Shown: positions 4,691 through 8,128 of the stretch, piece after piece
Layout of the letters: the number at the start of each line of letters is the position of its first letter
How positions within the stretch are numbered: the first letter of the stretch is position 1
Assembly (NCBI GenBank): GCA_012719175.1
Contig: JAAYAX010000011.1
Coordinates: 124,001 to 188,000, forward strand
DNA length: 64,000 bases
Direction: 5' to 3'
DNA from: Methanomassiliicoccus sp.
GTDB taxonomy: Archaea; Thermoplasmatota; Thermoplasmata; Methanomassiliicoccales; Methanomassiliicoccaceae
Made by a program: the position numbers and the translations under genes
Notes under the pieces: model-generated
Told to the model about the DNA's origin: nothing
The model's database searches: none
Seen by the model: only the letters and a program-made list of their open reading frames with translations

Positions 4691-4859
4691 GCCATCCCAC
4701 CGCCATCTGGAAGGTGCTAGCCATATCCATCTGGATGTATTATTATAGGCTGATTACCAATAAAGCGAACAAGATACTAACTGTTATATCGTAACCTCGT
4801 CCAACGGGTCTCGGGGACCGAGCAGGTCCATCCTCGGCAACCTGAGGAGAGATGGGTAC

Positions 4860-5444
4860 ATGATCAAGAGAAGAGCAATCATCGCGTTTCTGGCGCTGAC
4901 AATGGTCGCTGTCATGAGCAGCGGGGCATTGTACGCGTATTTCAACGATACCGAGACCAGCAGCGGCAACTCGTTCACTGCCGGTACCATCGATCTGACC
5001 GTGGACGCCCAGAACCCATGGGCTGCTACCGCGTTCACGGCCGAGAACCTGGTGCCCGGTTCCACGGGATTCAAGACCATGCTGCTGACCAACGCTGGCA
5101 ACTCCCCCGGTACCCTGACCGGACGCCTGACGAACATCAACAATGGAGCAGGCTCCACCCCCGAGCCGGAGGCGCTTCTGGGCACCGATGCTGGTGAGCT
5201 TGGGGACAACATGATGATAACCGTGTGGGTGGACAGCAACAGCAACGGTATCGTCGACGGGACGGAGACCACCGCCTACACGGGCACGGTCAACTCCGCC
5301 ACCACCAGCTGGAACCTGGGCTCGCTCGCAGGAGGGGCCACCTCCAAGGTGTCCGTCAAGTATCTGGTCCCGACCTCTGTGGGAAACGTGATCCAGGGCG
5401 ACATCTGCACCTTCAGCATCGAGTTCACCCTGACCCAGACATAG
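4860..5444 (+). CDS. TasA/camelysin-like secreted protein with SipW-type signal peptide
   Basis: A 194-residue exported protein. The N-terminus has two arginines, a hydrophobic core (residues 6-23) and the motif A-YFNDTE-SSGNSFTAGTIDL (26-45), the hallmark of proteins processed by SipW-type signal peptidases; cleavage is expected after Ala26. The mature part is a beta sandwich like TasA or camelysin, with the LVPGSTGF...LTNAGNSPGTL strand pair typical of the family. It contains a calcium-like DSNSNGIVDG loop (residues about 124-133). In Bacillus TasA forms extracellular fibres, so a structural or matrix role is likely. ATG 4860 follows a purine-rich GGAGAG site. It leads a four-gene operon; the next gene is its probable signal peptidase, 31 bases away. 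Confidence 0.85.
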   Translation: MIKRRAIIAFLALTMVAVMSSGALYAYFNDTETSSGNSFTAGTIDLTVDAQNPWAATAFTAENLVPGSTGFKTMLLTNAGNSPGTLTGRLTNINNGAGSTPEPEALLGTDAGELGDNMMITVWVDSNSNGIVDGTETTAYTGTVNSATTSWNLGSLAGGATSKVSVKYLVPTSVGNVIQGDICTFSIEFTLTQT

Positions 5445-5475
5445 GCCTGGACGCATTATTCCATGGAGGGTTGAG

Positions 5476-5979
5476 GTGAGGTTCAGGCCACGTCAAATAG
5501 GGATCGTCGCGATAGCAGCGTTCCTAGCACTGGCGCTGGCGGGTTCCCTGGCCCCGGCCTTAGGATGGAGGATGGACGTGGTGCGGTCCGGAAGCATGTC
5601 CCCCGCCATCAACGTTGGGGATCTAGCAGTGACCTCCCCGGAGCGGCCGGAGGACCTGGCGGTGGGCGATGTAGCCTGCTACCGGACCTTAGATGGCTCA
5701 TTGGTGTGCCACCGCGTCATCGCAATGGACAGTGCCAGCGCCATCATGGTCACCAAGGGCGATGCTAATGAGGATGCGGACCCGTATCCCGTAGCCTATG
5801 GGGATGTGGAGGGTAAGGTAGAGCTCACCGCACCCTACCTGGGTTACGTGGTTAACTTCCTGCAGGGACCGCTCGGGTGGGCGGCCATCGTCCTCTTGGG
5901 GGTGCTCATCATCGTCAACGAGGCCAAGGGAGAGAACGGCAAGAGCGACGCCCAGGGCCCCAAGGAGGGAGGCGAGTGA
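5476..5979 (+). CDS. sipW: SipW-like signal peptidase I (archaeal/ER Ser-His type)
   Basis: A 167-residue membrane serine peptidase that removes signal peptides outside the membrane. The start is GTG 5476, chosen because a strong GGAGGG site lies 5 bases upstream. A membrane helix spans residues 8-28, the catalytic serine is Ser40 in the motif SGSM, and the second catalytic residue is His79 in CHRV; the histidine, in place of the bacterial lysine, marks the ER/archaeal/SipW class. KGDANED (94-100) supplies the conserved aspartates, and a second membrane helix covers 133-149 before a charged tail. The genes on both sides carry matching SipW-type signals, so this is most likely their dedicated processing enzyme rather than the general signal peptidase. 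Confidence 0.88.
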   Translation: MRFRPRQIGIVAIAAFLALALAGSLAPALGWRMDVVRSGSMSPAINVGDLAVTSPERPEDLAVGDVACYRTLDGSLVCHRVIAMDSASAIMVTKGDANEDADPYPVAYGDVEGKVELTAPYLGYVVNFLQGPLGWAAIVLLGVLIIVNEAKGENGKSDAQGPKEGGE

Positions 5980-6506
5980 TCCCCAGAAAGGTATGGGCGA
6001 TCATGCTCGCGGCCGTGACGCTCATCTCCTTAGGTACAGGGGAGATCGCGTGCCACTACGTGGACACCGAGGTCTCATCGGTGATCTACACGTCTGGGGG
6101 GATACCCCTGCTGTGGAAGCAGACCAGCATGGAGGATTACGCCAGCGGCACAGCGACCGGCACCGACGTTACTTCTTATCCAGGTGACATCATGCTCCAG
6201 CCATCGGAGACGGGATCCTTTACATCAGCGGTCTTCGACACGGGTAAGGCGGGAACGATATTCGACCACGCGTTCTGGGACCGTATCCTCCCCGCAGGAA
6301 CCTCGATAATCGTAGAGGTGCGAGCGAATGATACCCTCTCCGGAGGAGTCCCGAACGATGCCTGGGAGGACCTGGGAGATGGCACCCATGCCTCTCTCGA
6401 AGGATTGACCGGACGATATGTGCAGTGGCGCGCCGTTCTGACCAGTGAGGTGCTGGGCGAAACCCCGGTGCTGGAAGAGGTGAGGCTATACTACCGTCTC
6501 GCTTAG
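5976..6506 (+). CDS. Second probable SipW substrate, secreted beta-sandwich protein
   Basis: A 176-residue exported protein with a GTG start at 5976 that overlaps the peptidase stop codon by four bases (GTGA), implying translational coupling. Its hydrophobic stretch (residues 7-20) is followed by CHYVDTE at 26-32; the D30-T31-E32 triplet sits at exactly the same residue numbers as in the TasA-like protein two genes upstream, which argues for the same signal peptidase. The mature part looks like a beta-sandwich of the kind found in surface proteins, ending in GRYVQWRAVL and VLEEVRLYYRLA. I cannot name the family. It could be an anchor, a cap or a minor subunit of the surface structure. Confidence 0.75.
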   Translation: MIPRKVWAIMLAAVTLISLGTGEIACHYVDTEVSSVIYTSGGIPLLWKQTSMEDYASGTATGTDVTSYPGDIMLQPSETGSFTSAVFDTGKAGTIFDHAFWDRILPAGTSIIVEVRANDTLSGGVPNDAWEDLGDGTHASLEGLTGRYVQWRAVLTSEVLGETPVLEEVRLYYRLA

Positions 6507-6553
6507 GGCGAAGGCATAGGCTCACCCGAGCAGCGGCCTGTCTTATCGCTTTA

Positions 6554-8128
6554 ATGTTCCTCGTCTCCTTCCCCCTGCCGGGGGCGGACGCTGCCAGCGG
6601 GGCCGTGGACCTGGTCCTGGGGGGACAGGGGAGCGTGGCCTGGAGCGCCGGCTCCATGATGCCCGGGGACACAGGTACCACCACCATCGAGATCCGCAAC
6701 GCCGGCTCCATCACCGCCAACCTGATGATATGGATAAGCAACGTCCAGGAGACCGATCTGCGGGGCGACGGGGCGGCCCTAAGCAAGTACCTGCAGTTCC
6801 ATTTATCATCCAACGGCCTCCACACCTCCTTGTCCTTACCTTCTCCCCTGAAGGACCTCCCGGACCACCCTGCCGATGAGAACCAGCTCCTGATCGGTCC
6901 GCTGTCCGCGGGGGAGTCGGTGACCGCCATATGGTCCTGGGAGTTCGTGGATACGGGCACTCCGCAGAACGACGCCCAGGGCGATGGCCTCAGCTTCAGC
7001 ATAAATTACCTCCTGGTGGACATACCAGTGGGCGGGAGCTCGTACAACTTCGTGATCGTTGACTTCCTGGGGAAGGAGACCGTGGTCGGCACCGACATCA
7101 ACGGGAACACCCTGGAGACGGTGATCGCCACCGACCGGACAGGCCGCTTTAGCCTCCACCTTCCGGAGGGGACCTCCATCACCACATCCGACAGTATGGT
7201 ACCCACCAGGATCACCCTATCCGTGGCCAACGCCTCGCTGTTGCCCACCGGCCCCCCGGGGGCGGAAACGGTGGCGGCCTACAGCTTCGATGGACGCCTA
7301 GGCAACGGTACAATAGTGAAGGTGAACTTTTCCCCCATGCCGGAGATCGTAGTGGGGCTTAATACCTCAGCGCTGCCCCGGGGCTCCACCATCCTGGGCC
7401 TGTACCAGCTGAACGGAGGTTCCTGGGGTCGATTAACGCCGATATCGGAGACCACCGTGACCTGGGAGGTAAGGAGCTACGTGAGCAACACCGGGGCCCT
7501 GGCAGTGTTCGTGGCCTCGGGCGGCACCGTGGCCCGCCTGGCCGTCCATGACTTCAAGGTCACCATGAACGTCAACGAGATGTGGTGGCCCCTGGTCCTG
7601 ATGACCAGCCGCGGAGGGTCCATCACCGCGACCATGGCGATAGTGAACGAGGGGAACAGCTCTGGAAGCTATGACCTCACTATGATCCTGGACGGGGAGC
7701 AGGTGGCCTCCGAGAAGGTCGCCCTGGAGCCGGGGGAGGCCAAGAACATCACCTTTCGGGCCACCAACCTGGCTGACGGCGCGCACGAGGTGACCGTGGG
7801 CGGTGAGACCCAGAGCTTCGTAACCGGCACCACGGTGGAATGGCCATCCCTCATCGTCCTCGTCACGGCGATCGTCGCGGGGGTGTTCCTGCTGACCAGG
7901 AAGAGGAAGCCCAAGAAGGAGATGCCGGAGATCCTGAAGACCGACTACAAGAAGAGGGTCGTCCGGGAGCTGGGGGAGATGAACCTCTCCTATTCCGAGC
8001 TGTCATCCCTTACCAATATCGAGGACGTGCACCTGCAGAAGGTCCTGGAGGAGCTGCTGGAAGAGGGCAGGTTGGTCCATTTCCGGGAGAAGGGGACGGA
8101 GATGTGGTCCCTTGCCGGTAAGCGTTGA
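6554..8128 (+). CDS. Membrane protein: TasA-like ectodomain, one TM helix, cytoplasmic winged helix
   Basis: From ATG 6554 the protein has 524 residues. The outer part starts with a TasA-like segment (MMPGDTGTTTIEIRNAGS, compare LVPGSTGF...NAGN in the first gene), continues with beta-rich domains, and has a CARDB-like domain at about 340-420. A single membrane helix lies at about 429-448, followed by RKRKPKK as a stop-transfer signal. The last 65 residues (460-524) form a winged helix (YSELSSLTNIEDVHLQKVLEEL, EEGRLVHF). This is the layout of a one-component membrane sensor. The start is uncertain: upstream codons in the same frame (from 6449) encode a better signal peptide, with RRHRLTR before the hydrophobic core, but contain no ATG, GTG or TTG. 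Confidence 0.75.
   Translation: MFLVSFPLPGADAASGAVDLVLGGQGSVAWSAGSMMPGDTGTTTIEIRNAGSITANLMIWISNVQETDLRGDGAALSKYLQFHLSSNGLHTSLSLPSPLKDLPDHPADENQLLIGPLSAGESVTAIWSWEFVDTGTPQNDAQGDGLSFSINYLLVDIPVGGSSYNFVIVDFLGKETVVGTDINGNTLETVIATDRTGRFSLHLPEGTSITTSDSMVPTRITLSVANASLLPTGPPGAETVAAYSFDGRLGNGTIVKVNFSPMPEIVVGLNTSALPRGSTILGLYQLNGGSWGRLTPISETTVTWEVRSYVSNTGALAVFVASGGTVARLAVHDFKVTMNVNEMWWPLVLMTSRGGSITATMAIVNEGNSSGSYDLTMILDGEQVASEKVALEPGEAKNITFRATNLADGAHEVTVGGETQSFVTGTTVEWPSLIVLVTAIVAGVFLLTRKRKPKKEMPEILKTDYKKRVVRELGEMNLSYSELSSLTNIEDVHLQKVLEELLEEGRLVHFREKGTEMWSLAGKR

Follow-up and report, generated by a model that had tools for sequence, protein, structure and literature searches.

The window analysed here is a stretch of 64,000 nucleotides from a Methanomassiliicoccus genome, and between positions 4860 and 8128 it contains four open reading frames, g1-g2-g3-g4, all on the plus strand. 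They had originally been predicted, from the sequence alone, to represent a SipW-TasA operon of an archaeon in which a membrane protein has one domain in common with the fibre subunit, and this part of the prediction is borne out. The four-gene unit recurs across the order Methanomassiliicoccales. The window genome is a 2.4 Mb assembly, and its nearest relatives are Methanomassiliicoccus metagenome-assembled genomes. Comparisons covered 120 genomes of the order, 400 of the class and 390 of the phylum, as well as the 15 genomes of the family (f1); most relatives are draft genomes, and few close relatives were available for depth of comparison. The features of the cluster are as follows, with the residues of g4 numbered in the ATG 6554 frame (P0004):

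4750..4859, plus strand: upstream region, in which alignment with other upstream regions shows a TATA-like TTATAT near 4782-4788
4860..5444, plus strand: g1, predicted TasA/camelysin-like secreted shaft subunit with a SipW-type signal, the donor-strand segment AYFNDTETSSGNSFTAG and a camelysin domain
5476..5979, plus strand: g2, dedicated archaeal/SipW-type signal peptidase I
5976..6506, plus strand: g3, putative donor-only partner with a SipW-like signal, the donor segment HYVDTEVSS and a C-terminal beta domain
6554..8128, plus strand: g4, putative membrane-anchored, acceptor-only TasA-like base protein, from the ATG of this frame
6596..7021, plus strand: camelysin-like domain of g4, residues 31-172, without donor strand, from profile comparisons
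7022..7540, plus strand: middle beta-rich domain of g4, residues 173-345, assigned with low confidence
7610..7825, plus strand: CARDB domain of g4, residues 369-440, a presumed membrane-proximal stalk (PF07705, 27.9 bits, cut-off 22.7)
7841..7894, plus strand: membrane helix of g4, about residues 446-463, from hydropathy, followed by TRKRKPKK
7937..8125, plus strand: winged helix-like, probably cytoplasmic tail of g4, residues 478-540

The assignment of g1 as a TasA/camelysin-like protein stands. By every available sequence test it is a member of this family: it scores 28.3 bits with TIGR04088 and 41.6 bits with PF12389, both above the curated cut-offs (19 and 22.5 bits, respectively), and it has a SipW-type signal together with a conserved donor segment. 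Profile comparison with the Protein Data Bank (PDB) leads to the TasA fibre structures 8aur (E 2.3e-5) and 5of1 (E 4.9e-5), while the match to the archaeal pilus protein AbpX is weak (E 0.12). The ratio of nonsynonymous to synonymous substitution rates (dN/dS) of g1 is 0.10-0.14. The name of the PF12389 family, metallo-endopeptidase, could be taken to mean that g1 is a secreted soluble or protease-like camelysin instead of a fibre subunit, and that the cluster is a surface protease or adhesin module, for which the Kelch-bearing relatives of g3 described below would suggest ligand or glycan binding. The profile matches to TasA fibre structures and the SipW-type signal with its conserved donor segment speak against this, and the possible cation site in TasA is at most a remnant of camelysin ancestry (PMC9674648), so that such a function seems very unlikely. 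The g1 gene of genome G013 (L051 233-782) is apparently frameshifted, with a profile match across two frames, and the g1 frame continues into g2.

The second gene encodes the expected SipW-like signal peptidase. It is identified as an archaeal signal peptidase I by TIGR02228 (88.7 bits, cut-off 51.85), and reaches 77.4 bits with the equivalog model of the Bacillus SipW, NF046067, which is under the cut-off of 190 bits. Within the family f1, a TIGR02228 peptidase above the cut-off is present in all seven g4-bearing genomes and also in G002 and G005, both of which have other camelysin-like matches, and the six f1 genomes without such a peptidase also lack g1-like genes. All 15 carry a longer, weakly scoring paralogue, presumably the housekeeping signal peptidase, and in the window genome it lies elsewhere.

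The second secreted protein, g3, starts with the GTG at 5976, which overlaps the stop of g2; the open stretch upstream to 5877 falls inside g2. As the original prediction had noticed, g1 and g3 share D30-T31-E32 at the identical position. The motif belongs to the donor segment, which in TasA comprises residues 28-38 and inserts into the next subunit (PMC9674648; PMC10151520). When a profile of the g1 N-terminus was scored against 200 shuffles per protein, the g3 of the window reached 6.7 bits and exceeded all 200 shuffles (best 6.0), and the N-termini of seven of nine g3 proteins outscored at least 199 of 200. This scoring confirms that the likeness of the two sequences is not a chance resemblance. 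Only positions 1-51 of the g1 profile match g3 (best in G007, E 8.2e-5), and neither a profile search for a camelysin domain nor a TIGR04088 search gave a match in g3. Its N-terminus thus has the make-up of a TapA-like nucleator, namely a SipW-like signal and a donor segment without a camelysin domain of its own (seven of nine homologues), and TapA has been proposed as the source of the first donor strand (PMC9674648; PMC10151520).

The bodies of the g3 proteins are Kelch or beta domains. The g3 of the window was compared with loci L046, L008, L009, L010 and L048. In relatives from other genera, a Kelch propeller lies between the donor segment and the C-terminal beta domain, and it is absent from the g3 of the window and of the two genomes nearest to it. 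The g3 of G007, with 879 amino acids, contains two propeller-beta units in tandem. Several g3 proteins have a Cys shortly before the D-x-E motif (IACHYVD, VLCTAVD, IGCSYVD, VHCALVD, IQCYQAD), at a position where g1 has Ala; in the window this Cys is residue 26, and there is no canonical lipobox.

For g4, the open reading frame at 6554-8128 is present as predicted, and its start needs revision. The frame is open upstream of ATG 6554, back to 6449, and a start at this ATG leaves a truncated signal peptide. The closest relatives start g4 about 50 nucleotides upstream, at an ATGA that overlaps the stop of g3; this ATG is absent in the window, and no in-frame ATG, GTG or TTG occurs upstream of 6554 (6488-6560). 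The true start therefore probably lies further upstream, judging from the relatives, and a rare start codon, start loss and a sequencing error cannot be told apart as the reason for the missing codon.

The resemblance of the outer part of g4 to TasA had been proposed from short motifs and became stronger in profile searches. Residues 31-172 align with g1 at a probability of 99.0% and an E-value of 2.7e-18 in hhalign, a profile built from g1 only recovers g4 in all 11 g4-bearing genomes (E 1.0e-11 in its own genome), and in the reciprocal search the g4 profile recovers g1 (own genome, E 5.1e-6). Both ends of the domain are shared, with PGD/PGS...N.G near the start, and GN.IQGD..SF.I in one protein versus QNDAQGD.LSF.I in the other near the end. 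The domain has a dN/dS of 0.08-0.09, the lowest value among the g4 domains and similar to that of g1. The middle domain (residues 173-345) gave no family match. Hydropathy shows a single membrane helix at the C-terminal side of g4, in agreement with the predicted single-pass protein, and it is followed by a positively charged tail, so that the TRKRKPKK side would be cytoplasmic according to the positive-inside rule.

A difference between g4 and g1 is found at the N-terminus. In ten genomes, the g1 profile of 194 positions aligns to g4 only from position 38-44 onwards, that is, after the signal and the donor segment of g1; in the incomplete genome G412 the alignment starts at position 56. None of the 11 g4 proteins scored above 1.3 bits with the profile of the g1 N-terminus, and the combination of a SipW-type signal with an N-terminal donor strand is lacking in g4. 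Because the defining donor strand is missing, the outer domain of g4 is, as judged from these alignments, a derived TasA-family relative and no ordinary fibre subunit.

The three proteins therefore have a complementary anatomy: g3 has the donor segment only, g1 has the donor segment and the camelysin domain, and g4 has the camelysin domain only. Our favoured explanation, which we regard as probable, is a surface fibre of the TasA/ABP type, put together by donor-strand exchange, in which the start or tip would only donate a strand, the membrane base would only accept one, and a shaft would lie between the two. In such a fibre, g2 would trim g1 and g3, which both bear a SipW-type signal. As g3 has a donor strand and no camelysin domain, it could only begin a chain, like a TapA-like nucleator, and its Kelch-bearing relatives would probably form a distal tip or adhesin. 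The shaft would be built from g1, which has both a donor strand and an acceptor domain. As g4 has no donor strand, it could only accept the strand of the last g1 subunit, and its CARDB stalk and membrane helix would tether the fibre to the cell. The homologies, the domain order, the missing donor segment, the co-occurrence of the genes and the purifying selection are observations about the cluster itself. Fibre formation, donor-strand exchange, polarity, the role of g4 as a base and the function of its tail are what we infer from them.

The distribution of the genes fits this explanation. The g4 outer domain was found in 11 of the 120 genomes of the order, and g1 is present in ten of these 11, the exception being an assembly that is 64% complete. 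The gene order g1-g2-g3-g4 occurs in G007, G011, G013, G003 and G355, in G092 the cluster is split across two contig ends, and in G288 no g2 reading frame was found between g1 and g3. Full-length g4 homologues are confined to the order among the 400 class genomes, in which the g4 profile otherwise mostly matches CARDB domains of unrelated proteins. The outer domain alone gave only marginal matches outside the order in the 390 phylum genomes, one of which, in G612, is a 208-amino-acid camelysin-like protein adjoining a signal peptidase.

Several points weigh against a donor-strand-exchange fibre with such a base. The g3 proteins of G355 and G288 keep the D-x-E motif and do not beat their shuffles. 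The g4 outer domain reaches only 18.8 bits with PF12389 in a protein scan, under the cut-off of 22.5 (in a genome search it scored 22.8 bits with neighbours, and the L048 homologue scored 22.9 bits in a separate scan), and its direct match to TasA structures in the PDB has an E-value of 0.2. The direct homology of g4 to TasA is therefore marginal, with g1 serving as the bridge. The AlphaFold model of g4, with a mean predicted local distance difference test (pLDDT) score of 38, is too weak for a fold and lends no support to an acceptor groove, the conserved camelysin domain could equally mediate lateral contacts, and no observation of a fibre was found in the literature on these organisms. It is also conceivable that g4 merely belongs to the same regulon as an ordinary surface protein tethered to the membrane, that its camelysin-like domain is a structural leftover and its tail a protein-binding winged helix without a regulatory role, and that g1 fibres are released instead of anchored. 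The tail of g4 is indeed evolutionarily dispensable and acidic, and the short tails of other CARDB membrane proteins in the class are unrelated to it. This explanation nevertheless seems quite unlikely, as it is at variance with the camelysin domain being the best-conserved part of g4 and with the occurrence of g4 together with g1 in ten of 11 genomes.

The original prediction had gone further and saw in g4 a possible one-component sensor: its TasA-like domain outside would read fibre assembly, and its winged helix inside would bind DNA and control the operon. The winged helix itself is upheld by homology and not by a confident structural model. A profile from four tails matches helix-turn-helix (HTH) proteins of the ArsR/V4R type, which are among its best non-self matches, in many genomes of the order (E down to 9e-6), and its matches in the PDB are mostly winged-helix chains, though not significant. 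The AlphaFold model of the tail (pLDDT 56) contains three helices with the wing unresolved, the G007 homologue scores 16 bits with DUF2582, below the cut-off, a direct Pfam scan of the window tail gave no match, and Foldseek with the tail model returned nothing useful. The tail is thus probably a winged helix, as far as homology can tell. Its helices 2 and 3 are nearly invariant across three close genomes (dN/dS 0-0.06) and hence under constraint, and a precedent exists in ArnR and ArnR1, membrane-bound one-component HTH proteins that control archaeal surface filaments (PMC6396743).

DNA binding by this tail is nevertheless unsupported. Its isoelectric point is 5.65 in the window and 4.91 in G007, in contrast to 8-12 in most ArsR-type matches, and the recognition helix reads IEDVHLQK or LEDDDLLQ instead of KAQSTLSVH, with E/D where the ArsR matches have Q/S/T. 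Of the 11 family members, four have kept the cluster although their tail is missing or decayed: in G003 and G092 g4 stops just past the membrane, and in G011 and G013 the tails are unrelated or decayed. About 275 residues separate the outer domain from the membrane, so that direct coupling is not evident. An operator was sought by aligning the upstream regions of nine genomes, and the only conserved block, which contains the TTATAT and is nearly identical in G000, G009 and G012, is common to these three close relatives; no operator shared by the window clade with G007 or with other families was found. We read the region 4750..4859 as the putative operon promoter. As the recognition helix lacks the usual DNA-contact residues and no shared operator was seen, a g4 that senses and acts on DNA is possible in principle and not supported, and we consider it unlikely. 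That g4 lacks exactly the donor strand of g1 and g3 favours an anchor or base subunit over a sensor. A receptor built on the base itself, in which the groove, once filled by the last donor strand of a capped fibre, would signal via the membrane helix to the winged helix and alter operon transcription, is likewise rather improbable. For the preferred membrane base, the tail would be an accessory of some lineages that links the anchor to a cytoplasmic partner, more likely a protein than DNA.

The history of the tail is varied. The window-type tail is common to G007, which belongs to another genus, and is absent from G011 and G013, which share the genus of the window. This makes loss likely, with the fork in question left undecided by the tree. 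Long tails that end in a different winged helix-like part are present in G355, G288 and G412, and the hhalign comparison of the window-type tail with the long-tail C-termini of G288 and G355 (42%) is only suggestive. In the g4 tail of G011 (L008 1159-2970), a helix-like motif (IANPQLLGSISDKLEGR and similar) occurs three times; it resembles a decayed helix 3 of a winged helix and possibly represents a protein-binding repeat. A 12-base palindrome, ATCACTTGTGAT, lies 5' of g1 in G355 (L048, at most 230 bases upstream of 5673) and recurs in imperfect form in G288 (L047); it is a possible candidate operator of the long-tail lineage. A generic module of CARDB domain, membrane helix and winged helix was considered and rejected, as the C-termini of the CARDB membrane proteins examined in the class are either short tails, most of them acidic, or other membrane domains. 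Near the cluster, the minus strand at 545-2368 encodes a protein that combines a coiled coil and a KaiC/RecA-like ATPase domain and is syntenic in G007 and G011.

The closest known counterpart is the tapA-sipW-tasA operon of Bacillus subtilis, which also has a dedicated SipW-type peptidase, a TasA-like subunit with an N-terminal donor segment, and another secreted protein, in which this signal and donor segment are joined to a different body. This body is a Kelch or beta domain in g3, where TapA has its own. TapA does not span the membrane, whereas the window cluster adds the membrane protein g4, and regulation in B. subtilis is exerted by the separate SinR. An acceptor-only membrane base was not found described in the literature on the B. 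subtilis TasA system, nor was a membrane-anchored winged-helix sensor in that on TasA systems. The TasA-CalY-CapP system of Bacillus cereus similarly combines SipW-processed camelysins with an accessory protein for assembly, located at the cell wall, but this protein, CapP, is secreted and chaperone-like and, unlike g4, is no camelysin-domain membrane protein. Archaeal TasA-like donor-strand-exchange fibres are represented by the bundling pili (AbpA; AbpX) of Pyrobaculum and Pyrodictium, which belong to a different phylum than the window organism. ArnR and ArnR1 of Sulfolobus acidocaldarius are linked to surface filaments like g4, but they have an N-terminal HTH domain, two C-terminal membrane helices and no fibre-like outer domain, and their DNA binding has been demonstrated. 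The general idea of membrane-bound HTH control of filaments thus has a precedent, and membership of g4 in that class is not supported.

Fibre polarity and cell anchoring are not settled in the literature found on TasA and the archaeal bundling pili. The gene anatomy described here appears to assign the donor half to a starter, the acceptor half to a membrane base and both halves to a shaft, and it would thereby predict which end of the fibre is proximal to the cell. The cluster would also add a dedicated fibre system of the SipW type, some of whose start proteins bear Kelch domains, to an order of methanogens in which the literature search had turned up none.

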